This document shows, piece by piece, positions 3,199-25,611 of a stretch of 64,000 nucleotides of DNA. The notes under the pieces were generated by a model that was not told the origin of the DNA, did no database searches, and saw only the letters and a program-made list of their open reading frames with translations. Where the stretch lies: NCBI GenBank assembly GCA_016219005.1, contig JACRCN010000026.1, positions 1 through 64,000 of the forward strand. The letters are read 5' to 3'. Source of the stretch: Deltaproteobacteria bacterium (GTDB lineage: Bacteria > Desulfobacterota > Desulfobacteria > Desulfobacterales > SpSt-501). Positions within the stretch are counted from its first letter, which is position 1; every line of letters begins with the position of its first letter. The position numbers and the translations under genes were made by a program.

Positions 3199-3270
3199 AG
3201 ATTGACGGCAGGGTCTTCATCAACCAACATCGCCGATGGATTCTCGCCTTGTCGAAAAAGCGGCTGGCTA

Positions 3271-3420: not shown

Positions 3421-3472
3421 CACTGCGCTTTTCGATGACCGTTCGATTGAGTTGGTGTTGAACGAAAACAAC

Positions 3473-6283: not shown

Positions 6284-6321
6284 CTTGAGCGCAAGCCCGT
6301 GTTATCGAGCTCTGCAGCAGT

Positions 6322-8401: not shown

Positions 8402-8449
8402 TTTCATCCTTCCTTCCAATGCATGCTCGCTGACTTCCAAAACCGACTA

Positions 8450-9565: not shown

Positions 9566-9649
9566 ATACGCCTTGTGTTTTCAAGGTGCTTTGCACCGTG
9601 GATACTTTCTGTTCTGTGCGGTCTGCTCCTCGCTTCCTTTATCATCTAA

Positions 9650-10504
9650 TTATAGCGAGTCAACCGTTTCCGATTCAAACGTCATAAAGAACCATAGGCC
9701 CGATACAAATGCAATCGAAGCAAAAACAAATGGATAGACGAAGGCAAACCACTCCACTTGAATATGAGGAACAAAGGCCGCTCTAAAATTTTCCACTACA
9801 GGCGTCATAGGGTTTAATTGAATGAGGATTCGCCATTTTTCCGGTATGCGACTTACAGGATACATTACAGGAGTGAAAAACATCCATGCTTGCATGAAGT
9901 ATCGCAAAGAATAGCGCATGTCTCGCGATATGGCATCTAGAACGGAAGTCCAGAGGCTCATAGCCAGCGACATGTAAAAGGATAGAATGACGCCTACCGG
10001 AGCGGCGAGAAGCTCCCATCCAAGTGACAATACGGCTTGCCCTTTTATGAAATAGTAGTAAATCCAAACTATTGCCACATAAATCAACAGAACCGATAGA
10101 TCGATAATACCGGATGCCTGTCCGGCTATGGGAAGCATCAGTTTTGGAAAATATACTTTCTTGGTGATACCACGAACAGTTTCCATGCTTCGCGTGCTCC
10201 ATGTCAAGGCACGGTCAAAGGAAGTCCAGACGGATAGACCCAAAACGATAAACATGAGAAACGGCAATGGACCGCTATCGACCCCTAATACAGTACCAAA
10301 GAGCACGGTGTACATGAGAACCATCATGGCTGGCCGTATGACAAGCCACAGCCAACCCAACGTCGAACGCTGATATTGCTTTTCCAATATTTTGTTTGTC
10401 AAAAAGCCTAGGAGGCGTCGGTATGACCAAAGCTCCCGCATATAATTACAGATGCCGGTACTCTTCGATGTCACAATCCACTGCGCGTTGCGCTCTGTAT
10501 TCAT
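9650..10504 (-). CDS. wzm: Polysaccharide ABC transporter permease (Wzm-like)
   Basis: The 284-residue protein has about six hydrophobic helices and the ABC-2 type permease signature. FLTNKILEKQYQRSTLG is the amphipathic stretch before the first helix, and QLNPMTPVVENFRAAF is the family motif near the C-terminus. It should form the membrane channel that exports the finished undecaprenol-linked glycan across the inner membrane. Its ATG overlaps the stop of the ATPase gene by four bases, as expected for partners of one complex. The name rests on the ATPase partner with its carbohydrate-binding extension. Confidence 0.93.
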   Translation of the reverse strand: MNTERNAQWIVTSKSTGICNYMRELWSYRRLLGFLTNKILEKQYQRSTLGWLWLVIRPAMMVLMYTVLFGTVLGVDSGPLPFLMFIVLGLSVWTSFDRALTWSTRSMETVRGITKKVYFPKLMLPIAGQASGIIDLSVLLIYVAIVWIYYYFIKGQAVLSLGWELLAAPVGVILSFYMSLAMSLWTSVLDAISRDMRYSLRYFMQAWMFFTPVMYPVSRIPEKWRILIQLNPMTPVVENFRAAFVPHIQVEWFAFVYPFVFASIAFVSGLWFFMTFESETVDSL

Positions 10505-11796
10505 TGCAAGGTCTCTGAAGGGCCGTTCGTCTCGCCACTGAACTCGTATTCAACCTCAAACCGCGGGTCAGCCACCCAGTGCTTAGGCGCTGAAAGACCT
10601 TGTTCGCGAATCTTTTGAAAACGATCTTCAGGGTCAGAAACTGGAATGCTGATCGCGTTACCTAATTTTGCAACATGCCAGTGGCCATCGTCAAAACAAA
10701 AAACACTCACATTGGCGGTGTAAACATCATCTACCAGAAGACGAGCAGGAATCTTCACCCAGCAGAAATAAAGACCGGAACGTTCGGGTGTGAAAGGTTC
10801 CGGCCGTGAACCGAACACGACAATGCCGCGATGATAGACGTCCGCATTAACGGCGTATTTCAGACCGGCGCAGTTGACCTGAAAGGGAATTTTAAGCCAG
10901 AAATCTTCATTAAGGGAGACGATACCTTTTATCTCCCGCATAGATGAGGTTATCTCAGGGTCAAGAATCACGGTATATTCGTTACGTGACATGACTTCAT
11001 CGCGGGACAATCGGCGAACTCGGCTTTGTTGGGCAGCATATTGCTCATATGCGATTATCATTTCCTCGGGGTAGCCCTCGTCGATAAGGCGACCTTGAAC
11101 AATGAATAAGGCGCGCTGAGTGATGTTTCGAATAGCCTGCATATCATGAGAGACAAATAGCAGTGTGGTCCCCTGCTTTGATATCTCGGCAATTCGTTCC
11201 TCGCACCGGTTGCGAAATCTGAGGTCACCGACGGCCAGAATTTCATCTGCCAAGATTATGTTGGGTTCAAGGTTGACGGCTATCGAAAAGGATAACCGAA
11301 TAGCCATTCCACTTGAAAATTTACCCAATGGGAGATCTGCAAACCGCTCCAGTTCCGCCCATTCCAATATGGAATCCATCCTGCAATGAATCGCCGATAC
11401 AGAGATGCCAAACAGAGCACCGCTGAGATAGATGTTCTCTCTTGCAGTAAGATCTTTGTTGAAGGCCGCACCTGCTTCAAGCAGCGGAACCAGCCGCCCC
11501 TTGCCTCTTACCACTCCCCGTGTCGGGAAAGTTACTCTGGATAATATTTTAAGCAATGTTGACTTACCGGCACCATTGGGACCGATGATTCCAAGAGATT
11601 CTCCTGTGCGGACTTTGAATGATATGTTATCTAACGCCAGAATTTCTCGCACGGGTCGACGTTGTGCCGGTGCATGTCCCCGTAACCGCTTGACGGCATT
11701 TAGTGCGAACTGGGCAAGAAAATGGCCCTGTGGTTTGAAGACGCGGTAAAGCTTGGATATCGAATCAATTTCGAGTGAGTAATCGTTGGTGGTCAT
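10501..11796 (-). CDS. wzt: Polysaccharide ABC transporter ATPase with C-terminal carbohydrate-binding domain (Wzt-like)
   Basis: Residues 72-80 are the Walker A motif GPNGAGKST, FSSGMA at 160-165 is the ABC signature, ILADE at 181-185 is Walker B and H217 is the switch histidine. After about residue 250 the protein continues for ~180 residues as a beta-rich domain (Wzt_C type). In characterised O-antigen exporters this domain binds the modified end of the glycan. That points to export of a chain with a recognisable terminal modification and fits the methyltransferases nearby. The 136-base AT-rich leader upstream (11797-11932) may hold a promoter, but no convincing -35/-10 pair was seen. Confidence 0.95.
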   Translation of the reverse strand: MTTNDYSLEIDSISKLYRVFKPQGHFLAQFALNAVKRLRGHAPAQRRPVREILALDNISFKVRTGESLGIIGPNGAGKSTLLKILSRVTFPTRGVVRGKGRLVPLLEAGAAFNKDLTARENIYLSGALFGISVSAIHCRMDSILEWAELERFADLPLGKFSSGMAIRLSFSIAVNLEPNIILADEILAVGDLRFRNRCEERIAEISKQGTTLLFVSHDMQAIRNITQRALFIVQGRLIDEGYPEEMIIAYEQYAAQQSRVRRLSRDEVMSRNEYTVILDPEITSSMREIKGIVSLNEDFWLKIPFQVNCAGLKYAVNADVYHRGIVVFGSRPEPFTPERSGLYFCWVKIPARLLVDDVYTANVSVFCFDDGHWHVAKLGNAISIPVSDPEDRFQKIREQGLSAPKHWVADPRFEVEYEFSGETNGPSETLQ

Positions 11797-11932
11797 GAAA
11801 TTCGCTTTTGGTCTGGATTCATTCTTCAGTTGCTTAAAAAGAATGTGACTAATTCCTCATAAATTTGATGAATAGTCTATAGTGCGATATTCAAATGAAA
11901 CAGAATTAATTTTATTTATACTAGTTCTGTCT

Positions 11933-12934
11933 CTACACTCGGTCAAAGTAATTGTTGCGGGTTTTTGCGCGAGCAAGATCTTTTTTTTGTCGCTGAGCCA
12001 ACTTGAATCCATACTGCGATAAAGTGTTACAAATCAACGCTTCTTCATCAAGCGAAGAGGCTTCGAACATAAGCCCCTGTATACGGGGATCGGTTAAAGT
12101 TCGTTTCGCTCCGGTTATGATTTTTGTTTCAATGCCGTCAACGTCGACTTTTATGTGAGTCGGGAACGGCAATCCCAGAACGCGAATCAAATCATCAAGC
12201 GCAAACGCGGCTTGCTGCAAAATCGCCTTTGGCTTGAATGCCGCTCCCTTCACATCAATCGGCTCCCCGAATACGCTTTCTGCACTTCCGGTCATGAGTT
12301 TGCGATAGTTGAACAAGCCGATCATGGTCTTATCTGCAATTCCGCAGTTCAATGGGATAATTAATTCCCCCAACCGATTCGTTATGATGTTTTGTGCAAG
12401 CGCAACAAAATTATGATAGGCAGGTTCGATACTAACAATGTGTTTGATACGGCCATGCTGCGCTGCCGCGACAAGACTAAAGGCACCGATATTTGCGCCG
12501 ATGTCGTAGAATACACTGCCATCGGGCATTGCTTCGATCCAAGCGATTGTTTCTGGCTCCTTTCTACAGTAATGAAGCCCAACCAACAGTTCGTTTTGGC
12601 TACGGACGCCTATGCTGATCTTTTGATGGGCATAATCCAAGTCTCGGGTGCGGCGAAATATATCAGCGATGGCAACAAATTGTTCATCTGACAATCGATC
12701 AAGACTATGAACAATGATGTCACGCAGTATCTCTTGAGAGGGCTTGTCATGCGATAGCGCGTCTATGGCGGCTTGCGCTGCTTGGGCAAAAACTGCGGGG
12801 GGAGGCTGTTTTTCCCTTGCGCTATTGCTCTCAACAAAGGTGGCTTTCGCCTTGACATAGATTTTTTGGTACAGCATCTTTGCTGCAGACGCAATACTCG
12901 CTTGGCGACCGAATTTCATCTCATGTGTCCTCAT
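11933..12934 (-). CDS. FkbM-family SAM-dependent methyltransferase
   Basis: The C-terminal two thirds follow the FkbM pattern. DGSVFYDIGANIGAFSLVAA is the SAM-binding motif, HIVSIEPAYHNFVALAQNI follows, and HIKVDVDGIETKIITGAKR carries the typical KVDVDGxE motif. The first ~100 residues are a helical extension. Enzymes of this family methylate hydroxyl groups of sugars or polyketides in the cytoplasm. It lies just upstream of the exporter genes, so a methylated glycan residue is a reasonable inference. Confidence 0.88.
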   Translation of the reverse strand: MRTHEMKFGRQASIASAAKMLYQKIYVKAKATFVESNSAREKQPPPAVFAQAAQAAIDALSHDKPSQEILRDIIVHSLDRLSDEQFVAIADIFRRTRDLDYAHQKISIGVRSQNELLVGLHYCRKEPETIAWIEAMPDGSVFYDIGANIGAFSLVAAAQHGRIKHIVSIEPAYHNFVALAQNIITNRLGELIIPLNCGIADKTMIGLFNYRKLMTGSAESVFGEPIDVKGAAFKPKAILQQAAFALDDLIRVLGLPFPTHIKVDVDGIETKIITGAKRTLTDPRIQGLMFEASSLDEEALICNTLSQYGFKLAQRQKKDLARAKTRNNYFDRV

Positions 12935-13043
12935 GTCAAGTATTAGCAGTTTTCAAGGAAGCACGAATACCACTCTACCATTTCAGCATGAATAAACAGA
13001 TGAAGAAACCGTTGTGGTGAGCTTTTCTTTGTGTTCGCTCAGT

Positions 13044-14174
13044 TTAAGGCAGATGCACTATCTTTGGGTTGCTACCGATCAGATGCCTATATTCGTACAA
13101 AGAACCCCTTTTTGCCGGTCTTTCAGGAGGTCTCCTGCAAAAAAACATGGGTATCCGTCGAACAAGTGCGGGGATATTGATTGTTCGCGACAATAAAAGC
13201 CGTTGATTGGGAGGTGGAAAATTCAGACTGGTGTAAGGTATCGGCAATACGGTAATTTCCAGTAGTTTATAAAAACGTTTCATGAGCACTCCTACCGCTG
13301 ATAACTCCTTATTGTGTTTCGAGCGATCTCGATTGTGACTGTAAAATACCGGGCAGCCGAGTTCTGATAACCGCTGTAAATATGCTAACACCTGATCGGT
13401 CGTCATCTCTTGAAACGACACCATATTGATCCCCAAATCGATTTTCGCCAACTCCACATTGCGGAATTGATAATGCGGTAGCAGTACAAAATCGTATTTG
13501 AGAAGGTCCGTCTTCAAGATTGACAACGGCCCGTCTCCATATATAAAAAACCGAGCATCCGGAAAAGCTGTCTTGAGATAAGTCCCGGAAAAAAGAAAGG
13601 TTTGCGGCAGATCTATCACCACGTAGGTTAGATTAGGCATGATCTTTTTGAGCTGATAAGCAAAACCGCCCCATCCTGCACCAATTTCCACGGCAACGGA
13701 TCGTCCGGAACCTGGAGGATCCCGCAGGTAGTCGAGAAGTCCGCCTTGATCCATTGCAATCAGTGATTCATAGAACTTGAGTGTGTCGATATTGACCTTC
13801 ACTCCGTTGATATCGTGCCCAAACCCGCCGAGCAGAGAGGATTCCGGAACAAAAAGGTTCTTGTGGTCTAATCTGCGAAGGGCGTTCAATTTGTTCAAAA
13901 AAGCACCAGCCTGGTGCGAATGATGGCGACGGTACTCATAAGAGCGCAAGCCGGTAATGTGGTAGCAGTGCTCGCGCAGTTTTTGGATGATGATCGGTGA
14001 TGCATCGAGCATATAGTCAAAACCAGCCAATTCCTCGCTCCAGTACCGGCTGGGGAGGTGCTCTTGATTGCTGGCTTCCCTCATCATCGACAAGACTCGT
14101 TCACGAACGACGAGGTAGTTCTGGTAGGCGGCTTCGCTTCGGGCGGATTCGATGTAGGCGTTTATCTCTTCCAA
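13044..14174 (-). CDS. Putative sugar O-methyltransferase
   Basis: The 376-residue protein matches the layout of putative sugar O-methyltransferases of lipopolysaccharide loci. A helical N-terminal third includes PSRYWSEELAGFDYML. The SAM-binding motif VAVEIGAGWGGFAYQL is near residue 180, with YVVIDLPQTFLFSGTYL downstream. GINMVSFQEMTTDQV near residue 255 is where such proteins place their substrate loop. The C-terminus is basic. It is a separate gene from the FkbM and TylF enzymes, giving three methyltransferase genes plus one fused domain within 8 kb. The target hydroxyl is unknown. Confidence 0.8.
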   Translation of the reverse strand: MEEINAYIESARSEAAYQNYLVVRERVLSMMREASNQEHLPSRYWSEELAGFDYMLDASPIIIQKLREHCYHITGLRSYEYRRHHSHQAGAFLNKLNALRRLDHKNLFVPESSLLGGFGHDINGVKVNIDTLKFYESLIAMDQGGLLDYLRDPPGSGRSVAVEIGAGWGGFAYQLKKIMPNLTYVVIDLPQTFLFSGTYLKTAFPDARFFIYGDGPLSILKTDLLKYDFVLLPHYQFRNVELAKIDLGINMVSFQEMTTDQVLAYLQRLSELGCPVFYSHNRDRSKHNKELSAVGVLMKRFYKLLEITVLPIPYTSLNFPPPNQRLLLSRTINIPALVRRIPMFFCRRPPERPAKRGSLYEYRHLIGSNPKIVHLP

Positions 14175-14240
14175 GCGGCTTTTCCCTTACGATAAGAAGT
14201 TCAATGAAGATCACCATGCCTTTTGGGGGCGCTGGCGGAA

Positions 14241-15851
14241 TTATACAGCCTTGGGAATCGATTTATCTTCGGGTGAAGATATCATGTTGCTTCTCTTCAA
14301 TGCACCCCTTTTCGTGGGATGAAGGGGGGAGGCCTCGATCGATCGCCGGATCCTTTCAGGTATCCTGCTGGGTGATATTCCACTGGCAATGCCTTCGATC
14401 GCAATTGCGCCAGCATATCCGGCAGATACCTCACGGCCGAAGGGGCGTATAAAGTTATTTATAAATTTTTGTCGTGCCTCTTTTTTGGGATCCAACCGGT
14501 GCAGAATGAGCTTGCGTATGAGTTCCACAAGGTCTGACGGGCAATCACTCATGTAAACCGCGTCCGAATTAGTTAGGTACTGGAAATGCTCCGCGAGCCG
14601 TTGCGTTTTTCGATACTTCTCCGTCATCACAGTGAACACCGGCCGATCCGCGATGAGCGCATCCAACATGCCTGAGGTATTGATCCCGACGACGGCTTCG
14701 CAATGCGTGAGCGAACTGAAGAAATCGCGCTGAGCCTCTTCCGACTCGGGCAGCGCCCCGTGTTTGGGCCAGACAGAGATTCCTTCACTTTCAATTTGTT
14801 CATAAATCTTATAATTGGCGGGATGCGGTCGGATCAGCAGGCCGAGGGTGCGTATTGCAGCATCGCTGTGCGTCCGTATTTCTTTTGCGATTGCCCCTAC
14901 CAGCCAAGTCTCATCCTTAGCAATATTTCGGGAGGACCCTAGATACAGAATAAATCGCTTGTGGTTAGGTAATCCAACTCGCTCTATGAATGCTCCCTTA
15001 TTCAAAATCAAATTGTCGGGGTCGAACCATTTGTCAAAAAACGGAGATCCTATGATCAAGACTCGTCGATGGCGCGCTCCATGCACCCTGACAGCTTCTT
15101 TAGAGTGCGCATGGTTCCATGATAGAATCACGTCGGGAAGGACGTGAAATATGCCTTTTGTGGTTAAATTATCCCAACTGAGTACGGGGATAACGCTCGG
15201 TATTCCCATGCGCTTGGCTGCTTTAACATATTCGATTTCCTCTGAAAACCGCATGTTTCCGGGAGTGCCAACGATTACATCCGGCTTGCGTTCCCCTAAA
15301 TCCTTAGCGATGAAAGCGTCTGGCGGTACCAACCTTTCTAACCCGGCCAGCGAAACGCCTGTCAACCATAAGCCCAAAACCCATCTGAAAAACGGATTCT
15401 CTAACCATCTTCGAAAAGGCTCTGGCAGATAGCCTTGCCACCGTTTAATGTAAAAGTCGGACTGCTCCGGACGACGTAGATAACTCGAAACAGTCCGCAA
15501 TTCGCGCGATCCAAAAAGGATCTTCCGCCATTTGTCAGAGCGCCGCCTACTCCAATCAAATTGGAGCTCAGGTAAGTCACGCAATGCACACCTCAGAGCA
15601 TCATCGGACTGATTCTTGCTCCAGCCTTCATCAAATAGCACCGTGACGGCATGCCCTCTATCGATCAGCGCTCGTACAATGGATTCGAAATATGAAAAGT
15701 GGTAGACGGATCGTCCTGCAAACAGCACCCGCAGTGGGCGCGGCTTGTCCTCAATCGCTCTCTGTACGGCGGGAACACCAGCGGGTGAATACGTCGAATC
15801 TTTCAGGCTAGTATCAGTATGGGATGAAAAAGAATAGTCAGACACAGGCAT
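14241..15851 (-). CDS. GT-B-like surface polysaccharide transferase, paralogue of the 936-aa protein's N-module
   Basis: The 536-residue protein has an N-terminal Rossmann start (PLRVLFAGRSVYHFSYFES), the motif LSWDNLTTKG near residue 245, GLLIRPHPANY, VVGINTSGMLDALIA near residue 400 and NNFIRPFGREV near residue 475. The same ordered motifs occur in the N-terminal half of the protein encoded at 3473-6283, so both belong to one family. The ATG follows the TylF-type gene's TAG after a single base, so translation is likely coupled. It is probably a cytoplasmic transferase using a nucleotide sugar or CDP-polyol; the donor is unknown. Confidence 0.75.
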   Translation of the reverse strand: MPVSDYSFSSHTDTSLKDSTYSPAGVPAVQRAIEDKPRPLRVLFAGRSVYHFSYFESIVRALIDRGHAVTVLFDEGWSKNQSDDALRCALRDLPELQFDWSRRRSDKWRKILFGSRELRTVSSYLRRPEQSDFYIKRWQGYLPEPFRRWLENPFFRWVLGLWLTGVSLAGLERLVPPDAFIAKDLGERKPDVIVGTPGNMRFSEEIEYVKAAKRMGIPSVIPVLSWDNLTTKGIFHVLPDVILSWNHAHSKEAVRVHGARHRRVLIIGSPFFDKWFDPDNLILNKGAFIERVGLPNHKRFILYLGSSRNIAKDETWLVGAIAKEIRTHSDAAIRTLGLLIRPHPANYKIYEQIESEGISVWPKHGALPESEEAQRDFFSSLTHCEAVVGINTSGMLDALIADRPVFTVMTEKYRKTQRLAEHFQYLTNSDAVYMSDCPSDLVELIRKLILHRLDPKKEARQKFINNFIRPFGREVSAGYAGAIAIEGIASGISPSRIPERIRRSIEASPLHPTKRGALKRSNMISSPEDKSIPKAV

Positions 15852-15852
15852 C

Positions 15853-16671
15853 CTATCTTTTGATAATCAAAAGCTGCTCGGTTTGCATCTGCCACATTTG
15901 GTACGGCGCAAGCTTATCGAGAATTTCATTTACTCCTTTAGTTACGCCTGGACACTTCCCGGCACCAAAATCGTCTAATAGCAGGATTCCACTCGCCGCC
16001 AAACGTGGCATGAGCTGCAAAATACAACGCTTTGTCGTTAAGTAGGTATCGACGTCAACATGGCAGAAACTGATTTTGCCGTCAGGGAGCTTACCGATGT
16101 TTTCAAAAAATTCCCCCTTGTGAACAACAACTCCCTTGAAATCCAAAAGATAGTTGACAACGTCTTGGTAGCTCGTATCAGAAAACATTCCCTTTGCATG
16201 ATAGGGATCCTTCTTGTGATCAAGGACGGATAGAGGGTGACCTTCAAAGGTATCAAAAGCATGAAGCGGAATATCTTCTCCCGTAAAGTGCCGCATAGCT
16301 GCAGAAATAAAATATGCGCTTCCACCTCTGTAGCTTCCGACTTCCACCATGGGCAGCTTCAAGTGACGCACGTTATACAATGCCTGCCAAATAACAAATA
16401 AGCGCTGGAACCGGAGGAGTGTTCGATTCTCGCTGATCACTTTCTCGGAAAAACGCCGAAATACGTCTAGATCCAAAGCGAGTTTGGCTTCCACACACGG
16501 TAGGTCGGTGATACGCGATGGATCCACATACAGGTAGTCCTGCTTTTTCTCGGCTATAAAAAGTCCTGCTTTTTGAGCAAAGTCATGAGCCAAGTTAGCA
16601 TAACCGAGATACCTCGAAGCAAAGTAAACTATTCTTTGAAGTGTTGATTCTATCAAAAAATTCATTCTCAT
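15853..16671 (-). CDS. TylF/MycF-family sugar O-methyltransferase
   Basis: The 272-residue protein shows the TylF/MycF pattern. LPMVEVGSYRGGSAYFISAA is the SAM-binding motif, LHAFDTFEGHP follows with the conserved acidic residue, ISFCHVDVDTYLTTKRC holds the metal-binding Asp cluster, and GILLLDDFGAGKCPGV the later Asp pair. The family methylates sugar hydroxyls with Mg2+ and SAM. The gene abuts the downstream transferase (one base between stop and start). Its 5' end lies right beside a truncated transposase, so the original upstream region was probably replaced. Confidence 0.88.
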   Translation of the reverse strand: MRMNFLIESTLQRIVYFASRYLGYANLAHDFAQKAGLFIAEKKQDYLYVDPSRITDLPCVEAKLALDLDVFRRFSEKVISENRTLLRFQRLFVIWQALYNVRHLKLPMVEVGSYRGGSAYFISAAMRHFTGEDIPLHAFDTFEGHPLSVLDHKKDPYHAKGMFSDTSYQDVVNYLLDFKGVVVHKGEFFENIGKLPDGKISFCHVDVDTYLTTKRCILQLMPRLAASGILLLDDFGAGKCPGVTKGVNEILDKLAPYQMWQMQTEQLLIIKR

Positions 16672-16690
16672 TTTGAGACCTTCTGCTCCT

Positions 16691-16873
16691 CACTTCGCAT
16701 CCCGCATACCCGCAGATCGCCTGGATCCCAACCCCTGCAGCTTCCTTTAACGCCCCGCTTAGAATCTGAAACAGATACTTCGCTACCCATACAACATGAT
16801 ACTGACAATGCCACAGCGTGTGTGATAACTTACGAAACGTGCCATGATCAATCTTGATTCTCGTAGTGCGCCG
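16691..16873 (-). pseudogene. Truncated IS200/IS605-family TnpA transposase
   Basis: Reading the minus strand from 16873, an open frame gives SHTLWHCQYHVVWVAKY and then AICGYAGCEV. These are the N-terminal strands of the Y1 HUH transposase that mobilises IS200-type single-strand elements. The frame breaks off after CEV at about 16691 and runs into the leader of the TylF-type gene. The catalytic HUH motif and the tyrosine are therefore missing. An in-frame TGA at 16874 and the absence of an ATG at the 5' side show that it is dead. It marks a past insertion and deletion in the polysaccharide locus. Confidence 0.8.
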
Positions 16874-16913
16874 TCATTATAATACTTTAAAAACCGCACT
16901 GTCGAAGATCAGC

Positions 16914-18218
16914 CTAAGGTTCCGTGACGCGCCGTACGAATAAATCATCCACCGTGGCGGAGGTTGTGTTTGAAAAGCTGAAATAATCTTTTATGTCGAA
17001 ATATAAAGTACAAGTATCTCCTATGGAGCCTGTATGGCTGTAATAGCCATGAAAATAAAACCAATCAGTCATTCTGTTGCACCAATGCAATTCATCGAAA
17101 TATTCCTCAGCATTTTGGATAGAGACAAAAGGACGGATTTGATCCGGGGCAAAACTGAGCACCTCAGAACTGGCATTTGCGCGCAAGGTGACTTCAACAC
17201 GATCTATTGCCGCATACGAAGGAGATACTAATCTCATCCAGCCACCAAACTCATATAATCCCGGATTTGATAAGGTGAACGTTTGATAAAATACATTTCC
17301 ATTGCTGGCCACTGTATCAATAGTGCAATAATGCGGAACTCCAATCGGCAACCCATAAGCTCCACCATGTACTTTGTAGGGAGTAAATGACAAACTCGGG
17401 TCCATCCTGCTGTCAGGAATTGTCCGACATGAGGTCGCATCAGCGGTTACTGATTTCTGGCACTCAATCCATGGCTCAGAGTCTCCATTTTCAAAATCGG
17501 GATTGACAAGGAGGTTTGAAATTGACCTCGACTTCCACAGACGGATATCTTGTAGGACAGTGGCGATTTCAGGTCCTCCTGCATTGATTGTAATTGGCAC
17601 TATCCGCTGACTTGAGTAGGTGGGATTTGAAACAATAAGCGAGTATCCGCCGGCTGCGGTCCGGATTTCAGGTAGATCGACGAGGAAAGTCTGACCGTTG
17701 AGAACCTCGATGGATTTGAGCTCAATTACGATCGCCTGGTTGGAGCCATAAAAGAAGGGGCTTTCGGCATATTGAAATCTCAAGGTGGCAACACTGCTAT
17801 CACCGGCCCCCTCGATGATCACCCTGCCAGTGACATAGCCGATATTGGCGCTGTCTAAATCTATGTCAACGGTAAGCTCGTTACTAACTTCAACCTCTTT
17901 GAAATGAGGATGATATCCTGGAGCGTATGCAACGACATTGTAGGTTCCCGGATTGAGCGAGGTTGAATACTCGCCATTTGCATCAGTTAGGACTTGGACT
18001 ACTACATCAACTTGGGAACCGTCGGTTCCATAGAGGTCTAAGAGTTGAATACTGACACCGGCATTAGATATGGCAGTGCCGGAAACGTCAACAACCCGGC
18101 CTGTTACTATTGCATCATCAGATGAATCATCGGAAGAGCCTCTGGAACAGCAATAAGACATTAAGACTATCAGGAATGCGAACCCAAGTTTTGAAAAATG
18201 GAAAATTGTATGTTTCAT
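16914..18218 (-). CDS. Exported protein/lipoprotein with carboxypeptidase-regulatory-like domains
   Basis: Starting at ATG 18218, the protein begins MKHTIFHFSKLGFAFLIVLMSYCC, a signal sequence ending at a Cys pair. A Tyr at the -1 position makes the lipobox weak. A Ser/Asp-rich linker (SRGSSDDSSDD) follows. Then come two beta-sandwich stretches of the carboxypeptidase-regulatory type (VTGRVVDVSGTAISNAGVSI with DANGEYSTSLNPGTYNVV, and VTGRVIIEGAG). The C-terminal ~190 residues may be a carbohydrate-binding or adhesion module (LLVNPDFENGDSEPW is typical of such starts). It is probably surface-attached. A longer start at 18254 would bury the signal sequence and is not favoured. Confidence 0.72.
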   Translation of the reverse strand: MKHTIFHFSKLGFAFLIVLMSYCCSRGSSDDSSDDAIVTGRVVDVSGTAISNAGVSIQLLDLYGTDGSQVDVVVQVLTDANGEYSTSLNPGTYNVVAYAPGYHPHFKEVEVSNELTVDIDLDSANIGYVTGRVIIEGAGDSSVATLRFQYAESPFFYGSNQAIVIELKSIEVLNGQTFLVDLPEIRTAAGGYSLIVSNPTYSSQRIVPITINAGGPEIATVLQDIRLWKSRSISNLLVNPDFENGDSEPWIECQKSVTADATSCRTIPDSRMDPSLSFTPYKVHGGAYGLPIGVPHYCTIDTVASNGNVFYQTFTLSNPGLYEFGGWMRLVSPSYAAIDRVEVTLRANASSEVLSFAPDQIRPFVSIQNAEEYFDELHWCNRMTDWFYFHGYYSHTGSIGDTCTLYFDIKDYFSFSNTTSATVDDLFVRRVTEP

Positions 18219-18474
18219 TTCAGGCCCCCGTTTGAAGAGGAGAACCTCGCACAATCACCCGTCAGTTTGATTCGAACTAATTCTCTCCCTCAAAGCACTA
18301 CTGTCCCAACGCTGTTCTGCGCAGATCATGTAACCAGTCTAAACCAGATAATATTTTTTAGCGCTCTGGATATCTCATCCATTCTATCGCCGCAAGCAAC
18401 GGGGGTACAAGACTCGAACAGGATTCAATTTCAGATGACTAATTACCCGGATTCTATAGAGAAGACCGCCGACT
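18219..18474. other. Intergenic region with no recognised gene
   Basis: This AT-rich stretch lies between the lipoprotein gene and the duplicated glycosyltransferase fragment. No frame with coding character, RNA gene or clear promoter was recognised. It probably contains the leader and promoter of the lipoprotein gene. Confidence 0.5.
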
Positions 18475-18725
18475 CATCGAAACGTATATTTTGGTGAATT
18501 TATTCTTGTCGTTGAAGTCCCTTATCTCTTTATAGCCTTTATCGGCACGCAAATTGCCGCATTGGCAATCATAGGAAAATTCTTATCGTCAGGCTTCTGG
18601 TGCAATATCTTGTTTTCTTCGCAACAAAAACCCATTTCCATGTTGGCATGAAATTTCACTGAGGGGTCGTTGAAGATGATTTCCAAATTATTCAAGCCCG
18701 CGGGCTTTGCAATCCATTTAATCGT
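18475..18725 (-). pseudogene. Partial duplicate of the 3' end of the membrane glycosyltransferase gene
   Basis: The minus-strand translation contains KFHANMEMGFCCEENKILHQ. The intact gene at 19910-21493 encodes KFHAGMKMGFCCEENKRLHQ near its C-terminus. Nucleotide similarity also covers the last codons (the stretch encoding FNDKNKF in the intact gene). Between these blocks the copy has lost roughly 65 bases of the intact sequence and has no complete frame. The copy is in the same orientation, so the two similar stretches form direct repeats on either side of the GDP-L-fucose synthase gene. Confidence 0.85.
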
Positions 18726-18783
18726 CTTTCGGTTTTCAGCTGATGCCAAAGGAACCGGCTATTGCCGGTGCGTAGTTTATACT

Positions 18784-19854
18784 TCACCCAGCCTGTAGAG
18801 CACCTGTTTGGTACCACTCGTAAGTAAGCCTCACACCATCGCCGAGATCAATTTGCGGGCTCCAGCCAAGTCCGGATAGACGTGACAGGTCAAGCAGCTT
18901 TTGGGGCGTGCCGTCGGGCCGGGATGAGTCCCAGGCGACGTCCGCTTCGAACCCCACTACCTTTCTGATAATCGCAGCCAGCTCGCGGATCGTGTTGTCT
19001 TTGCCGCAGCCCACGTTGAGATGAGAGACCTCGCCGCCTCTGTCTGCGCACGCTTGGCCGTATTGGCTGTCGGAGACCTGCATCACAAACACGCAGGCGG
19101 CGGCCATGTCATCCACGTGGAGAAATTCGCGGCGTGCAACCCCGGTCCCCCACAGCCTCACGCCTGGTAGGGCCTCGCGCATATCCTTCGGCATGGGACC
19201 GAAGCACTCTTCGTCGCGCCGAATCCCCTCCCAATCCCCCTGCCCCGCCAGCTTCGCCAGGTGAAACTTGCGCAGCATGGCTGGAAGCACGTGGGAGTTC
19301 TCCAAGTCGAAACTGTCGTTTGGCCCGTAGAGGTTGGTGGGCATGACCGAGCGGTAGTGCGTGCCATGCTGCCGGTTATAGGACTCGCAGAGCTTGATTC
19401 CGGCGATCTTGGCGATCGCATACGGCTCGTTGGTGGGCTCCAGGTAGCCGCTCAGCAGATATTCCTCGCGCATCGGTTGCGGGCAGCTGCGCGGGTAGAT
19501 GCAGGAGCTTCCCAGGAAAAGAAGCCGGTCGACCCCGGACGTGAATGCCGCCTGGATGACGTTGCATTCAACCATCAGGTTCTCATAAATGAAATCGGCC
19601 CGATAGGTGTTGTTGGCGTGGATGCCGCCCACTCTGGCCGCGGCCATGAACACCGCATCGATCTTCTCGCTCCGGAAGAAATCCACCACTGCCTGCTGGT
19701 CGATCAGGTCCAGCTCCGCATGCGTGCGCGTGATGATGCGACTATAGCCTTCGGCCTGGAGCCTGCGCACGATGGACGAGCCGACCATGCCGCGGTGCCC
19801 GGCGACGTAGATGGAAGCGCTTTTGGAAAGCACGGGGGAATTGGATTGCGTCAT
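18784..19854 (-). CDS. fcl: GDP-L-fucose synthase
   Basis: The 356-residue short-chain dehydrogenase has the NADP-binding start IYVAGHRGMVGSSIVRRL, then VFMAAARVGGIHANN, FLGSSCIYPRSC, and the catalytic Tyr-x3-Lys in EPYAIAKIAG. PTNLYGPNDSFD follows. It epimerises and reduces GDP-4-keto-6-deoxy-mannose to GDP-L-fucose in the cytoplasm. The partner dehydratase (gmd) is not in this window. The gene is clearly more GC-rich than both neighbours and sits between direct repeats, which suggests separate acquisition. A few extra residues at the N-terminus compared with typical enzymes are harmless. Confidence 0.95.
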   Translation of the reverse strand: MTQSNSPVLSKSASIYVAGHRGMVGSSIVRRLQAEGYSRIITRTHAELDLIDQQAVVDFFRSEKIDAVFMAAARVGGIHANNTYRADFIYENLMVECNVIQAAFTSGVDRLLFLGSSCIYPRSCPQPMREEYLLSGYLEPTNEPYAIAKIAGIKLCESYNRQHGTHYRSVMPTNLYGPNDSFDLENSHVLPAMLRKFHLAKLAGQGDWEGIRRDEECFGPMPKDMREALPGVRLWGTGVARREFLHVDDMAAACVFVMQVSDSQYGQACADRGGEVSHLNVGCGKDNTIRELAAIIRKVVGFEADVAWDSSRPDGTPQKLLDLSRLSGLGWSPQIDLGDGVRLTYEWYQTGALQAG

Positions 19855-19909
19855 GACCGTTGAATCGCTCTTTGCTTGAAACCGATATTAGCAGCAGGCC
19901 AACCTTATC

Positions 19910-21493
19910 CTAAAAGAGAAGAGATGGCAGCCGGTCCACCGAAACGGATATTTTGATGAATTTATTCTTGTCGTTGAATTCTTTTATCTCTTTATAGCCT
20001 GCGAAATCAGCGATGTCTTTTCTCCTGTCGGTGCGCGAGTAGATAACGATCACATCGGTCTCTTTTTTAAGCGCCTCTTGGGCAATCTTCGAGAAATTTC
20101 TGTCGCTCGGGTCTTGGTGCAGCCTCTTGTTTTCTTCGCAGCAAAAACCCATTTTCATGCCGGCATGGAATTTCACCCCGGGATCGCTGAAGATGATTTT
20201 CAAATTCCTCAAGCCCTCGTGCTTTGCAATCCATGATCCGGCCCGTGATTTCAAGTCGTCCTTATGGGTGAAGTATTTATCGAACTTAAGAGCCGGCGCG
20301 GCAAAGACCAGCAGCAGAACGCATGCCACAATGACCTCTTTATGGGAGCACCCCTGGGCAAGAACCAGAATCCTATCTATACCGAAACCGACCCACGGGC
20401 ACAGCAATACCGCGGGCATGAACAGATATCTTGCAAGAACAAGATCATGCCAAATTAAAAAGCCATATGTAAGAACGAGAAAACAACAGGTCAAAAGGAG
20501 CACAAAAACATGCCGTCCTGTGTATCGGGCCCGGAACAACCCCCACAGCAACGGAATAATATTCACGGCCAAGATGACTTTGGAAAACATGTGCAACATG
20601 CCGAGGAGGTAAATAAGCTCCATGAACTGCATGGCGGTTTCGGCGAAATGTTGCCCGACAATGCTGTTCACAGATGCGTCTTGCATCTGCTGGAGCTGCG
20701 CGGAAACACGGTGGTAATTTTCCAGGAAGCTTAGATCCCGAAAGCCACGAAAAAAAAGCGCCCAATCGTCGAATCGGTTGATCATCTCACCGCGGGATTC
20801 CATGCCGATGTAAATTGCCGCGATGAGACAGGCAAAAAGCCCGCCCCAGGTGGCCATCAATCGGATATAATCTTTGCGTTGATCGCTTTTGGAGATGGCC
20901 AACACGAAAAGGAAACAGAAATAGGCCGGAAAAATGATCAGACCTTCGATTCTGAAAAGGGTTGAAACCCATGCGAACAGGGCCGAACCCACAAGTTGCA
21001 CGAGTCGTTTCGACTGGAGCGCCTTTTGAGAAAAATAAACCGCGCACATGGCAAATAGAAAGAAAGGCGGGTCGCGCATCACCGAGTTCGAGTGGAGCAG
21101 CGTCTCCGGCAAGAGGGCAAATGCAATGCAACCCCAGAACGCCGCACGGCGATTGAACAGATCCTTGCCAAGCAGGTACAATGGGATGACGGTCAAGGTC
21201 ATGGAGAAATATGAAATCAGTCTGCCGGCCAACACCCAATTTGGGATTATTTTATGAATCAACGAGATCAGATAAGGAAAGAGGGGCATCGGATAGATTG
21301 CCAAGCCTTCCCGATACATCCCCACCCCAAATTTCCTGGCAGCCGCGATGTAGATCTCTCCGTCAAAATTGAGATCCGCGTTCCACCTCACGATGAAAAG
21401 CGCCCCCATCAGAATGGCGGAAAACGTTAATAGCAGGGACAGCGCGCGACTGCTTTCAGGTATCTGGGTCAATTCCCGGCAGATACGATTCAT
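19910..21493 (-). CDS. Polytopic membrane glycosyltransferase (ArnT/PMT-like, GT39/GT83 class)
   Basis: The 527-residue protein has about ten hydrophobic helices. After the first helix comes RWNADLNFDGEIYIAAARKF, where the acidic residues fit the first periplasmic loop of the GT-C fold. FALLPETLLHSNSVMRDPPFF near residue 130 matches the second conserved loop. The C-terminal ~100 residues are soluble. Such enzymes move a sugar from a polyprenyl-phosphate donor to lipid A, protein or glycan on the periplasmic side. It is the first gene of the minus-strand polysaccharide locus. Part of its 3' end is duplicated at 18475-18725. Confidence 0.82.
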   Translation of the reverse strand: MNRICRELTQIPESSRALSLLLTFSAILMGALFIVRWNADLNFDGEIYIAAARKFGVGMYREGLAIYPMPLFPYLISLIHKIIPNWVLAGRLISYFSMTLTVIPLYLLGKDLFNRRAAFWGCIAFALLPETLLHSNSVMRDPPFFLFAMCAVYFSQKALQSKRLVQLVGSALFAWVSTLFRIEGLIIFPAYFCFLFVLAISKSDQRKDYIRLMATWGGLFACLIAAIYIGMESRGEMINRFDDWALFFRGFRDLSFLENYHRVSAQLQQMQDASVNSIVGQHFAETAMQFMELIYLLGMLHMFSKVILAVNIIPLLWGLFRARYTGRHVFVLLLTCCFLVLTYGFLIWHDLVLARYLFMPAVLLCPWVGFGIDRILVLAQGCSHKEVIVACVLLLVFAAPALKFDKYFTHKDDLKSRAGSWIAKHEGLRNLKIIFSDPGVKFHAGMKMGFCCEENKRLHQDPSDRNFSKIAQEALKKETDVIVIYSRTDRRKDIADFAGYKEIKEFNDKNKFIKISVSVDRLPSLLF

Positions 21494-22010: not shown

Positions 22011-22400
22011 ATGGAAAGCATCTTGATCATCGATGATGAAGCCCAAATCCGGTCGATGATCCGTCTCATCCTGGAGCGGGAAGGATACGTGGTGACGGAA
22101 GCCCCTGACGGAACCGACGGAATTCGCCGGTTCCGCGAAAAGCCAACCGACCTCATCATTACCGACATCATCATGCCCAACAAGGACGGCATCGGGATGA
22201 TCATCGAACTCAAGAAAGAGTTCCCCGGCGTCAAGATCATCGCCATGTCCGGCGGCGGACTCAACCGGCCCGAAGGCTATTTGCGCGGGGCCAAGCAACT
22301 CGGCGCCGCCTGCACCCTGTCCAAACCGATCAACCGCCAGGAGCTGTTGCGCGCGGTCAAGGACACCCTCAAGGGCAAAGCCGCGTCCCCGCCGACATGA
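22011..22400 (+). CDS. Stand-alone receiver domain response regulator (CheY-like)
   Basis: The 129-residue protein is a single receiver domain. D8 and D9 form the acidic pocket, D52 (LIITDIIMP) is the phosphoacceptor, S80 (IIAMSGG) and K105 (LSKPI) complete the active site. There is no output domain, so it must act through protein contacts. No histidine kinase is encoded nearby. The last bases overlap an ATG (ATGA) of the following frame. It opens the plus-strand group that includes the repeat protein and the AAA-OmpA fusion, which makes it a candidate regulator of that envelope machinery; that link is inference. Confidence 0.93.
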   Translation: MESILIIDDEAQIRSMIRLILEREGYVVTEAPDGTDGIRRFREKPTDLIITDIIMPNKDGIGMIIELKKEFPGVKIIAMSGGGLNRPEGYLRGAKQLGAACTLSKPINRQELLRAVKDTLKGKAASPPT

Positions 22401-22570
22401 TCCGCCGATGTTCGGCTGCCCCGATAGCGATCCGGTTACGTATGGCCGCGCGGATTGATCCCATCTACATTTCGCCGCCCGCCGTTGATGTGCGGGGCAA
22501 TCGGGGCCGCGCCAGAAACTCTATGCCGGCCGCCGCATCCGAAACCATGCCATGTCAGTCCCTCCAAATA

Positions 22571-23383
22571 ATGAGTTCCCCGCGCTGGCGGACCGTTCGA
22601 TCGGCAGCGCTAATGCTCGCCGTCGCTTCGACCGCACTCCTCGGCGCCCAACGCGCCGGCGCCGATATCATTCATTTTAAAGACGGGATGAAAACCGTCT
22701 GCCAAGGAAAGGCCTGGGAAGAGAAGGACGAAGTGCGCTGTGAATATGGCGGGGGCGTGCTGATCTACCCGAAAACCGATGTGCAGGCGATCGAACGACT
22801 CCCGGCACCTGCGCCTGCCCCCACAGATCCGCCTGAAAACCAAACCGTGCGGGTCCCGCGACCAGCTTCCGAAACCCCCTCGGCCCCACCATCGGCTGGC
22901 ACGCTTGCGCTGCCCCAAGGGCGTCCGAACGCTTCGGTCGTGCTGTTCTACGACCCCCGGCGGCCAAAGAAATACTGGAGCAGCCCCGCCCGCCAGCACG
23001 ATTCCTACCGCGAGGCCGTTTCCGCCCTGGCGGCCGATTTCGACCGCCCGGTCGAGTGGGTGGAGCAGCACATGATCGACTCCAACGACCTCATGGAGAT
23101 CCGCCGGCATCTCGAGGACCGGCGTACCTCCGGCGATGAAACGCAATCCGCCAAGAGAGCCACCGCCGAGACAGCCGTTGAATTCTACAACCCCCGCCGG
23201 CCCGCCAAATACTGGACATCGGAAACCGCACATCACAATTCCCTGGCGGAGGCATTGCAGGCTCTCGCGAGCGAATTCTCGGAAACCCCCGAGTGGGTTG
23301 AATTGCACATGGCTGCCAGCAACGATCTCAACGTGATCCGCCAGAGCCTTATCCAGGCCCAAAACCCGGATGCGGCCCAATGA
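22571..23383 (+). CDS. Exported protein with two copies of an unrecognised ~57-residue repeat
   Basis: From ATG 22571 the protein starts with a signal peptide (positive SSPRWRTVR, hydrophobic SAALMLAVASTALLG, cleavage after AQRAGA). A ~45-residue module with IIHFKDGMKTVCQGKAW and two Cys follows, resembling small beta-domains of deltaproteobacterial envelope proteins. After a Pro-rich linker come two repeats, at about residues 125-182 and 204-261. Each has FYxPRRPxKYW, then a helical part ending EWVExHMxxSNDL. No known family was recognised. The frame is open back to an ATG at 22397 overlapping the receiver gene, but that extension has non-coding-like codon use. ATG 22547 is another option. 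Confidence 0.7.
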   Translation: MSSPRWRTVRSAALMLAVASTALLGAQRAGADIIHFKDGMKTVCQGKAWEEKDEVRCEYGGGVLIYPKTDVQAIERLPAPAPAPTDPPENQTVRVPRPASETPSAPPSAGTLALPQGRPNASVVLFYDPRRPKKYWSSPARQHDSYREAVSALAADFDRPVEWVEQHMIDSNDLMEIRRHLEDRRTSGDETQSAKRATAETAVEFYNPRRPAKYWTSETAHHNSLAEALQALASEFSETPEWVELHMAASNDLNVIRQSLIQAQNPDAAQ

Positions 23384-23500
23384 GATGTTGACATCCCCGG
23401 CGCAATTATGTCATGAATGACATTTATTGCTATGTGATATTGGGAAGTTAGAGTTGCGGCCAACCCGCCAAGCAACCCGCCGTGAAAGGATACCGGAATT
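23384..23500 (+). promoter_or_regulatory. Intergenic region with a perfect palindrome, possible operator
   Basis: ATGTCAT-GA-ATGACAT at 23408-23423 is a perfect 7-bp inverted repeat with a two-base centre, the size of a dimeric regulator site. TTGACA at 23388-23393 lies upstream, but no good -10 hexamer is found at the right distance. It may be an operator for the membrane protein gene downstream. The evidence is the symmetry alone. Confidence 0.3.
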
Positions 23501-24055
23501 ATGGCCGGTTTGAATCGGGATCTCGTTCTCGTCATAAAAGGGGTGGCCAGTTGCCTGACGGCCGCCTTCCTGGTTTTTTTCATCTCGGCCCTATCCGGCG
23601 AAGACCTGCCCAAGAACCACAGCACCATCAAGGACCTCGACCGGATCCTGGGAGAGATCTCGGCGGAGCTGAACGGCGGCATCGAGCGCCGGATCCGGCA
23701 ACTGGGCGAGGCCCCGAAGAAAAACCCCTATAAAAGGTTTTACTGCGCGGAACTGGCCAAGGAAGTCCACGAAGTCGCCTACCTGACCGAGAAGCAAAAA
23801 ATCATGTTCGATACTTACAGCGTCAGGGATTTCGAGGACAAGTCCAGGCGCCTGGTCGCCTATTCAGAGTCGGCCGATACAGAACGCCTTCTGGGCGAGC
23901 TGGACATCGTCAAGCGGGAGTTGAAAAACTCGGTCAACCTGATCGAGAGCCGCAAGGGAAAATTGATCCGGCAGCGCACCGCCTATTTGATCTTGTTCTT
24001 CATTCTGTGGATTGCCGTTTATTTCTATTACGGGCGGGGGTTCATCCGCTCCTGA
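23501..24055 (+). CDS. Small membrane protein with two terminal helices, unknown function
   Basis: The 184-residue protein has a hydrophobic helix at residues ~8-30 (VIKGVASCLTAAFLVFFISAL) and another near 162-180 (TAYLILFFILWIAVYFYYG). Between them are ~125 charged, mostly helical residues with heptad-like Leu/Glu/Lys spacing, probably a periplasmic or cytoplasmic coiled hairpin. AAAGGA about 12 bases upstream of the ATG may be the ribosome site. It lies 65 bases before the AAA-OmpA gene on the same strand. No family was recognised. A structural role in the same envelope complex as the neighbouring genes is inference. Confidence 0.75.
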   Translation: MAGLNRDLVLVIKGVASCLTAAFLVFFISALSGEDLPKNHSTIKDLDRILGEISAELNGGIERRIRQLGEAPKKNPYKRFYCAELAKEVHEVAYLTEKQKIMFDTYSVRDFEDKSRRLVAYSESADTERLLGELDIVKRELKNSVNLIESRKGKLIRQRTAYLILFFILWIAVYFYYGRGFIRS

Positions 24056-24120
24056 TCCGAACATGGCCATCGCCCGCCGCCGGCGGGCACGACGGTCGGC
24101 CGTGACGGCGTGAGGGCTGA

Positions 24121-25611
24121 ATGTATCTCAACTTCTACCGGTTAAACTCCAAGCCGTTTCAGATCACCACGGATACCCGGTTCCTGTGGCTTGGAGAGAA
24201 GCATTCCGAAGCCCTGGCGACGCTCAAGTATGGCATCCTCGAAGACAAGGGCTTCCTGCTGCTCACCGGAGACGTCGGCACCGGCAAGACCGCGCTCATC
24301 AAACTTCTGGTCAAGTCCATCGATATTTCGGCCATCGTGGCCACCATCCCTGACCCGAGTTTGGAAGCGGCCGATTTTTTCAACATCCTGGCCGAGGAGT
24401 TCAAAATGGACAGGCGGTTCGCCTCCAAGGGCGACTTCCTGATCTACTTCAAGCAATTCCTGCTCAAGGCGCATACAACCGATAAAAAAGTGCTGCTGAT
24501 CATCGACGAGGCCCAGCGCCTTCATCACGACCTGCTCGAACAAATCCGCCTGCTCTCCAACATCGAGCTTGAAAACCGCAAGCTGATCAACATTTTTTTC
24601 GTGGGCCAGACGGAGTTCAACCGCACGCTTCTCGAAGAGCGGAACAAGGCGGTGCGGCAGCGCATCACCGTGCACTATCACATCGAGCCGCTGGCCGAGC
24701 TCGAGACCCAGCAATACATCCGTCATCGCCTCGGTGTCGCCGGGTGCAAAACGGAAATTTTCACGATTGACGCGATGCGGCGAATCCATGCGTTCTCCGC
24801 CGGTTATCCGCGGCTGATCAACATCATCTGCGATCACGCCCTGCTGACCGGCTACGCCGGGGGTACGAAGGCGATCGACGTCAGCCTGATCCGGGATTGC
24901 GAGAAGGAGCTGCGCCTGCCCGAAGGTGTGCGACCTCAAGCCGCCGGGAGCGCGGACAAGTCGCCCCCCGCCCCTGTCGCGGAATCCCCGGCCCGCGCCT
25001 CCAGTCGCCGGACCCTCATGGTGCTGGTATTCCTGCTGCTGGCGACATTCGCCGGCCTGATGTTCTACCAGTACCGGTCGGAAAAACCCCAGCGGTGGGC
25101 CGTAGAAGACATTGCACCACAAACGTATAAAGGACTCGCCGGAGTGCCGCTCTTGGACGCCCAGAAGGACGAATCCACGGCAGCGCAATCTCCCGGACCG
25201 CCCGCGGCAAGCCCACCGCCAAAAGCCGCGGCGCCGGAGGCCGTCTCATCGGAGAGTCTCGCAAGGAACCCCTTCGCCCGGGGTAAGGTCATCATTTTCT
25301 TCCCCTACAACTCGAACGAACTGACCCCCGAGGGGCTCGCGGCCCTTGACCGAATAGCCGAGTTTCTGAAAGCCAACCCGAGTCTCAAGGCTGAGATCCG
25401 CGGGTACACGGATTCAGTGGGAGCAGTCAACTACAACGTGAGCGTCTCGGCCTTCCGGGCGAATTCGATCAAGAGTTACCTGACCGGCAAGGGGGTCAGC
25501 TCTTCCAACCTCATCGCGCAGGGACTGGGACCCAAAAACCCGATCGCCTCCAACGACACCCTTGAGGGGCGGGAGCAGAACCGCCGCGTGGAGATCGAGC
25601 CGGTGCTGTAA
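24121..25611 (+). CDS. ExeA/GspA-like AAA ATPase fused to an OmpA peptidoglycan-binding domain
   Basis: The first ~270 residues are an ExeA-type ATPase. MYLNFYRLNSKPFQITTD is the family's N-terminal signature, GDVGTGKT at 50-57 is Walker A, and LLIIDE at 125-130 is Walker B followed by AQRL. A membrane helix (TLMVLVFLLLATFAGLMFY) lies near residue 300-320, then a Pro/Ala-rich spacer. The last ~100 residues are an OmpA-like domain (FFPYNSNELTPEGLAALDRI, then EIRGYTDSVG and GREQNRRVEI). This places the ATPase in the cytoplasm and the OmpA domain on peptidoglycan. ExeA proteins help insert secretin machinery through the cell wall; most use a different peptidoglycan-binding module. Confidence 0.9.
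   Translation: MYLNFYRLNSKPFQITTDTRFLWLGEKHSEALATLKYGILEDKGFLLLTGDVGTGKTALIKLLVKSIDISAIVATIPDPSLEAADFFNILAEEFKMDRRFASKGDFLIYFKQFLLKAHTTDKKVLLIIDEAQRLHHDLLEQIRLLSNIELENRKLINIFFVGQTEFNRTLLEERNKAVRQRITVHYHIEPLAELETQQYIRHRLGVAGCKTEIFTIDAMRRIHAFSAGYPRLINIICDHALLTGYAGGTKAIDVSLIRDCEKELRLPEGVRPQAAGSADKSPPAPVAESPARASSRRTLMVLVFLLLATFAGLMFYQYRSEKPQRWAVEDIAPQTYKGLAGVPLLDAQKDESTAAQSPGPPAASPPPKAAAPEAVSSESLARNPFARGKVIIFFPYNSNELTPEGLAALDRIAEFLKANPSLKAEIRGYTDSVGAVNYNVSVSAFRANSIKSYLTGKGVSSSNLIAQGLGPKNPIASNDTLEGREQNRRVEIEPVL

Follow-up and report, generated by a model that had tools for sequence, protein, structure and literature searches.

The way in which large secretins and export portals come to span the peptidoglycan layer is only partly understood, and the GspA/GspB pair is one worked case. 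ExeA/ExeB, in which an ATPase that binds peptidoglycan is paired with a scaffold protein, is reported to be required for secretin assembly (PMC4098917), and GspA/GspB is described from some gamma- and betaproteobacteria (PMC9239104). In these accounts GspA/ExeA joins a cytoplasmic AAA domain through a membrane helix to a peptidoglycan-binding domain in the periplasm, and works with a dedicated membrane partner (PMC4098917, PMC9239104). As defined in the latter source, the periplasmic part of GspA/ExeA carries a cysteine-peptidase-like domain and a PG-binding (non-OmpA) domain, and GspB has a single transmembrane segment followed by a periplasmic HR domain (PMC9239104). Here, we analyze a gene module in a 64,000-nucleotide stretch (the window) of a Deltaproteobacteria bacterium of the Desulfobacterales (assembly GCA_016219005.1, contig JACRCN010000026.1, positions 1 to 64,000, forward strand). 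An earlier note on this DNA had proposed an undescribed envelope system of four plus-strand genes, encoding a stand-alone CheY-like receiver (RR), a putatively secreted repeat protein (REP), a membrane protein (MEM) and an ATPase fused to an OmpA domain (AAA-OmpA). What holds of this proposal is a core of MEM, AAA-OmpA and REP that is conserved together, but the general membership of the receiver and a secretin or pilus as the target are not supported. At its safest, the core can be described as a conserved envelope module in which an ATPase that probably binds peptidoglycan goes with a constant partner in the membrane and a secreted one, and on balance we lean towards its three proteins forming one cell-envelope device. 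We call the gene set undescribed because a literature search returned nothing describing it by title or abstract start.

The co-occurrence of the three genes was followed in 389 genomes of the order, each cited here by a G number where needed, with only the top six to eight candidates per genome scored, so that absences are not strict. MEM is found in 29 of them, and in 9 of 58 relatives with the window genome counted in. The class sample returned the same genomes (29/389), all being the window's own, of the same genus or of the same order, and MEM was not found outside the order in the phylum sample, for which the single hit in 395 genomes is the window's own genome. Twenty-three of the 29 loci lie on named contigs, all from metagenome-assembled genomes of Desulfobacterales, Desulfobacteraceae, Desulfosarcinaceae, Desulfosarcina, Desulfatibacillum, Desulfatitalea or Deltaproteobacteria; the other six are the window, G022, G476, G509, G612 and G639. 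In every one of the 29 MEM-positive genomes MEM is followed on its own strand by the AAA-OmpA gene, which runs into the contig end in G022 and G502. REP with its repeats, defined as a match ending beyond profile position 160, occurs in 25/389 genomes, namely 24 of the 29 with MEM and 1 of the 360 others (G447). A further 74 genomes match only earlier profile positions (99/389 in all), hence the barrel at the start of REP is not specific. Of the 24 genomes, 12 have REP upstream of MEM (only a fragment of MEM in G567, at what looks like a contig break) and 10 have it downstream of the ATPase. In the other 2 it is unlinked, lying on another contig in G001 and approximately 2.2 Mb from MEM in G532. 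Given that REP is upstream, downstream or unlinked yet kept, the association of MEM, ATPase and REP survives rearrangement. The gap between AAA-OmpA and REP is 6–30 bp in 7 of 9 measured loci with REP downstream. Three MEM-positive genomes lack a full REP at contig edges (G022 and G502) or where its N-terminal part is followed by masked bases (G456).

These loci also bear on whether the genes are merely neighbors by descent, with no shared function. The whole block is syntenic in the window's genus, including the NUDIX, aminotransferase and thioredoxin-reductase-like genes, as simple descent would have it. However, REP has relocated and is still found in 24/29 MEM-positive genomes compared with 1/360 others, and the adjacency of MEM and AAA-OmpA is retained where the flanks change, and we regard shared descent alone as very unlikely. 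The earlier note had held that a conserved gene order would support a system and that scattered orthologues, or restriction of the two unknown genes to this strain, would speak against it. MEM and REP both recur across related genomes, and MEM, AAA-OmpA and REP stay together in varied orders across several genus-level groups, so that the proposal is not refuted on these terms, but RR is not universal.

All four plus-strand open reading frames (ORFs) are present where the earlier note had placed them, with the REP start corrected (Table 1). Each of the 14 pairs tested has a ratio of non-synonymous to synonymous change (pN/pS) below 1, with silent sites near saturation: 0.07–0.21 for MEM (5 pairs), 0.29–0.44 for REP (4 pairs), 0.15–0.31 for AAA-OmpA (3 pairs) and 0.11–0.23 for RR (2 pairs). 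This indicates that the four are real genes and not chance ORFs.

Table 1 Positions of the module genes, their parts and the flanking cluster in the window.
Feature	Position	Strand	Basis
RR, stand-alone CheY-like receiver; peripheral member, one branch only	22011..22400	+	PF00072, E 8.4e-25
REP, signal-peptide-like start, YgdR/DUF903-like small barrel and two copies of a new 60-residue unit	22571..23383	+	homologue alignment, model, repeat tests
REP ORF as first called	22397-23383	+	
REP N-terminal barrel, residues 30-81 counted from the start at 22571	22658..22813	+	3fif_A (YgdR) fold match
REP repeat unit 1	22934..23113	+	60-column ungapped alignment to unit 2; profile match
REP repeat unit 2	23171..23350	+	alignment to unit 1; profile match
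MEM, new family of ~184 residues, helical throughout with a hydrophobic helix at each end	23501..24055	+	25-row alignment, model
AAA-OmpA, ExeA/TIGR03015-like ATPase, one predicted transmembrane segment, C-terminal OmpA domain	24121..25611	+	domain matches
Flanking surface-polysaccharide cluster (context, outside the module)	182..21493	-	domain matches of its proteins

By sequence comparison, MEM and the REP repeat are two protein families that are nameless in the libraries searched. Neither window protein has a Pfam or NCBIfam family above cut-off, and the homologue sets (for which cut-offs are shown for the first member only) match scattered, unrelated families: 25 MEM homologues share no Pfam family among more than 7 members (best E 0.0069, best 25 of 29 families; NCBIfam best E 0.02), and 18 REP homologues share none among more than 5 (best E 0.00017, best 25 of 32 families; NCBIfam best E 0.002). 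Profiles of both return only chance-level rows against PDB sequences (best E 0.11 for MEM and 0.26 for REP). MEM is well conserved, with a mean column identity of 70% over 25 rows. Its model (mean predicted local distance difference test score (pLDDT) 82.1, predicted template modeling score (pTM) 0.64) has five helices at residues 6-31, 36-68, 77-102, 108-123 and 127-182, the first and last being hydrophobic. Compared with solved structures by Foldseek and VIA-align, it finds generic helical rows only, the best being a designed protein (Z 8.9, root-mean-square deviation (rmsd) 3.9, 120 aligned), and we therefore make no fold claim. A lipoprotein reading of MEM through Cys18 was rejected, given that 3 of 25 rows have G in place of C18.

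For REP, the first ATG of the ORF, at 22397, overlaps the RR stop codon. For six of seven full-range homologues the alignment begins no earlier than residue 58-87 of the ORF as first called; the nearest homologue (G001) aligns back to residue 39, but with a stop codon within the match. Because homologues align late and a signal-peptide-like start lies at 22571, the true start is probably there. The two repeats align to each other with a score of 166, compared with a maximum of 44 among 500 shuffles, and by a count of the repeat-start motif in the homologue set, 18 proteins have two starts and 2 have one. The profile of the unit has no match outside REP genes among the ORFs of the loci examined. 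The REP alignment is gappy, with a mean column identity of 29%. In the model (mean pLDDT 81.8, pTM 0.35, with 10-residue blocks of the domains mostly at 88-98) a small barrel has its strands within residues 33-75, and both units share one string of short strands and helices. The barrel matches 3fif_A (YgdR) with Z 7.5, rmsd 1.7 and 52 aligned residues, but Hfq-like barrels follow at Z 5.5-5.9, hence the YgdR likeness is a fold resemblance only; the fold list is filled by the barrel and not by the repeat unit. The 25 Pfam families listed, of 32 matched by the 18 homologues, include neither DUF903 nor LysM or other known peptidoglycan-binding repeats. A LysM relationship of the unit, considered for its likeness, was dropped, since no LysM is among the matches listed.

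The ATPase combines AAA_22 (residues 42-170, E 8.3e-25) with OmpA (PF00691, residues 393-488, E 1.9e-21), separated by a hydrophobic segment at approximately residues 298-316 that is its one predicted transmembrane helix. In its C-terminal part OmpA alone is above cut-off among the best 25 of 28 Pfam families, the last of them at E 0.19. The Walker A and B residues (K56, D129 and E130) are invariant in 27 of 27 module ATPases, as are D431 and R446 of the OmpA domain, the peptidoglycan-contact residues of the OmpA family. The best NCBIfam model is the XrtA/PEP-CTERM-associated ATPase TIGR03015 (residues 1-264, E 1.7e-75), and the score of approximately 254-256 bits is about 70 bits short of the curated cut-off of 324.5. 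On a tree of 56 AAA domains with 200 bootstraps the module ATPases sit among AAA-OmpA fusions and cluster, with 3 label changes compared with 18.9 in shuffles. Five ExeA-like ATPases from secretin regions (G000 C80, G056, G022 C104, G035 and G019) are on other, well-supported branches. The window genome has nine ExeA-like matches, eight of them on contigs other than the window's. At the 20 paralogue loci examined across Desulfobacterales (two without OmpA), neither MEM nor REP was found.

Some of these paralogue loci have features of their own. A second AAA-OmpA fusion of the window genome (G000 contig C71, 2231-3985, locus L101) is accompanied by neither MEM nor REP within the 12 kb of its contig that were read. 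At a second type of AAA-OmpA locus (L105, L107, L109, L118 and L120) the ATPase adjoins a protein of 377-392 residues with two hydrophobic segments that belongs to a different family, and the two-helix membrane protein at L109 has no Pfam match. A gene of approximately 760 residues is also present in L105, L118 and L120, with TPR by Pfam in L120 and a lipoprotein-like start by eye. A defense system was considered and rejected: in PADLOC the ATPase matches ZorB/MotB by way of its OmpA domain (best E 2.8e-13) and, less strongly, P-loop models, and there is no match for REP or MEM.

Several observations weigh against a single three-protein device. G509 and G639 have MEM and the ATPase with no REP gene there and no repeat-reaching match elsewhere among the top candidates, and G447 (79% complete) has RR and REP with no MEM found among its top candidates. 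The co-occurrence counts are uncorrected for shared ancestry. AAA-OmpA fusions are widespread without MEM, and the module ATPases form a single clade in 0 of 200 bootstrap trees; they may nevertheless have a single origin. Furthermore, the 12 residues before the second hydrophobic helix of MEM average 6.1 K/R compared with 1.1 D/E, and because of this excess the helical bundle may be cytoplasmic. As the charge statistics of MEM conflict, the bundle may lie on either side of the membrane, and we place it on neither.

The earlier note had suggested a secretin or pilus as the target, and comparison across genomes does not bear this part out. The corresponding explanation would make the module a counterpart of GspA/GspB with an OmpA domain, an accessory to type II secretion system (T2SS) or type IV pilus machines by which a secretin or pseudopilus would be helped across the wall. 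One case for it is G470, in which pseudopilin-like and further genes, gspD (E 1.3e-87 to T2SS protein D), gspE/pilB (E 9.6e-142) and a hybrid kinase lead on one strand into MEM, AAA-OmpA and REP. However, this T2SS has its own ExeA-like ATPase (with a weak PG-binding match, E 7e-4) and a small GspB-like gene (by eye), and nucleotide-sugar dehydrogenase genes stand at the place of the T2SS genes in G022 and G502, which belong to the genus of G470. Pilin-like genes are close to MEM in G456 (three upstream, one tested with E 6.2e-10 to MshA and the others by motif) and G034 (one approximately 7.3 kb downstream, cut by the edge of the 8-kb count), and secretins lie on the same contig as MEM in G449 (12 kb away, with pilus-type genes) and in G581, G533 and G612 (17-30 kb). 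Yet T2SS or pilus genes within 8 kb are found at 3 of 29 MEM loci (G470, G581 and G456) compared with 0 of 20 control loci, which is no clear difference, and secretins are present in 43 of 43 genomes examined, 19 with MEM and 24 without, so that secretin presence failed as a discriminator. The window genome has three secretin matches, all on contigs other than the window's, and no secretin adjoins the module in the window. Together with the separate branching of the five secretin-region ATPases, this makes a T2SS or pilus accessory unlikely. As a separate observation, the T2SS-type genes of G470 (loci L150 and L169) stop before the hybrid kinase and the module.

The export or anchoring of surface polysaccharides offers another possible target. 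The ATPase and MEM would then hold an export portal to the wall, with REP as a periplasmic partner of the polysaccharide or the portal. The cluster to the left of the module in the window encodes a glycosyltransferase, an ABC exporter, methyltransferases, a GDP-fucose-synthase-like epimerase and PMT_2, but on the opposite strand. Across genomes, the window's branch has such genes on the receiver side at 9 of its 11 receiver-REP loci (71 kb), and at 6 of 8 when only loci with MEM are counted; 2 of 4 hybrid-kinase loci (25 kb) have them too. For comparison, there are none at the 10 loci from the remaining MEM branches (147 kb), while they occur at 4 of 18 loci around other AAA-OmpA genes (272 kb), three of the four through the ABC-ATPase query alone, and at 1 of 16 around other ExeA-like or REP-barrel genes (233 kb). 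The comparison is biased and suggestive only, given that the query proteins were picked from these same loci. Three of the 11 loci (G001, G447 and G532) are moreover receiver-REP pairs away from MEM. TIGR03015, the closest NCBIfam model of the ATPase, sits in exopolysaccharide loci, but the module ATPase is well under its cut-off. A role in polysaccharide export or anchoring seems improbable to us. For the 15 proteins scanned to the left of the module, no listed match names an exosortase; no search of the genome was aimed at it. Three long ORFs of the cluster (1318-3198, 3473-6283 and 14241-15851) have no Pfam match at 1e-5. Elsewhere in the window, 40944-42677 encodes one protein with a YcaO domain followed by TPR repeats, 46322-48943 a guanylate/adenylate cyclase catalytic domain plus three GAF matches, and 61411-62763 an Lcl C-terminal domain joined to a protein kinase domain.

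Phosphorelay genes are recurrent neighbors of the module, but RR belongs to one branch. Response_reg covers residues 4-117 of its 129 and is the only Pfam family matched, so RR has a receiver domain without an output domain, as the CheY-like definition has it. A search of 54 chosen genomes (at most 79 candidates scored per genome) gave orthologues of at least 70% identity in 14, the next best match being 58%, and 14 of 14 adjoin a REP match by coordinates. RR is beside REP also in four genomes in which MEM lies at another place or is among the genes not found (G001, G532, G552 and G447), and G013 has a partial receiver at a contig edge. Because its orthologues are in 14/54 genomes and tied to REP instead of MEM, RR is a side member and not part of a universal four-gene set. 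A second, partial REP match beside a receiver is seen in G552 (C1:5872247-5873204), far from the MEM-linked REP. In another branch, the gene that immediately precedes MEM, on the same strand, encodes a hybrid histidine kinase of 673-1062 residues with a receiver at its C-terminal end; this is so at 4 of 29 loci (G022, G502, G470 and G449; Pfam-confirmed in G470 and G449).

That two different phosphorelay proteins adjoin the module could point to a sensor of envelope conditions, in which MEM would be a helical sensor between membrane helices, REP would sense the periplasm and the receiver or hybrid kinase would relay the signal. The layout of the MEM model would suit this, and NarQ sensor fragments are among its weak Foldseek rows (6yue, probability 0.82, E 0.36), but this match falls short of significance, chance matches occur with helical bundles and MEM has no signaling output domain. 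Moreover, where REP is downstream, a phosphorelay gene is absent next to most of the loci. We consider a sensor quite unlikely.

Taken as a device, the module is by analogy most likely a peptidoglycan-anchored, ATP-driven inner-membrane complex working like GspA/GspB. The AAA domain would be in the cytoplasm, and the single membrane helix would carry the OmpA domain into the periplasm, where it would hold peptidoglycan. MEM would be the inner-membrane partner of the ATPase and REP its secreted periplasmic partner. ATP hydrolysis, working against the wall as a fixed point, would serve to assemble a trans-envelope structure, to open it or to position it, much as with GspA/GspB, and the phosphorelay protein, a stand-alone receiver in one branch and a hybrid kinase in another, probably adjusts it. 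The machine served may be a secretin or pilus system or polysaccharide export, or the role may be a general one in the envelope, to which the changing neighbors may point. A bolder reading, to which we give little credence, has a peptidoglycan-gripping ATPase and two new families make up a new class of assembly motor that is anchored to the wall and, within the genomes searched, confined to Desulfobacterales; it would move between genomes as a unit and serve different trans-envelope machines, namely T2SS, MSHA-type pili and polysaccharide export, under phosphorelay control.

Compared with known systems, parts of the module have several partial counterparts. YgdR/YgdI (DUF903) lipoproteins have a small barrel like that of REP, but REP has two additional new repeat units and, by eye, no lipobox cysteine in the signal region of the window protein. 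The TIGR03015 ATPases are the best NCBIfam match of the module ATPase but differ from it in that it is below their cut-off and carries an OmpA domain. Other AAA-OmpA fusions of Desulfobacterales have the same two domains in the same order, without MEM or REP at the paralogue loci, and DamX and MshM were considered as possible relatives. Like GspA/ExeA, the module ATPase has an AAA domain with intact Walker motifs and one predicted membrane helix; unlike them, it bears OmpA instead of peptidase-like and PG-binding domains, and its gene adjoins no gspB or secretin gene in the window, although the relative G470 has gspD and gspE nearby. MEM differs from GspB in its two hydrophobic helices, and no GspB family is among the matches listed for 25 members. 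Also unlike GspA/GspB, the module has the extra, putatively secreted REP, no tie to a secretin and an ATPase apart from the secretin-region ones. We judge that the module resembles GspA/GspB in logic yet, by their definitions, belongs to neither family. If this is true, a conserved module with the same logic and different parts, in an anaerobic order, would provide a second solution for comparison.

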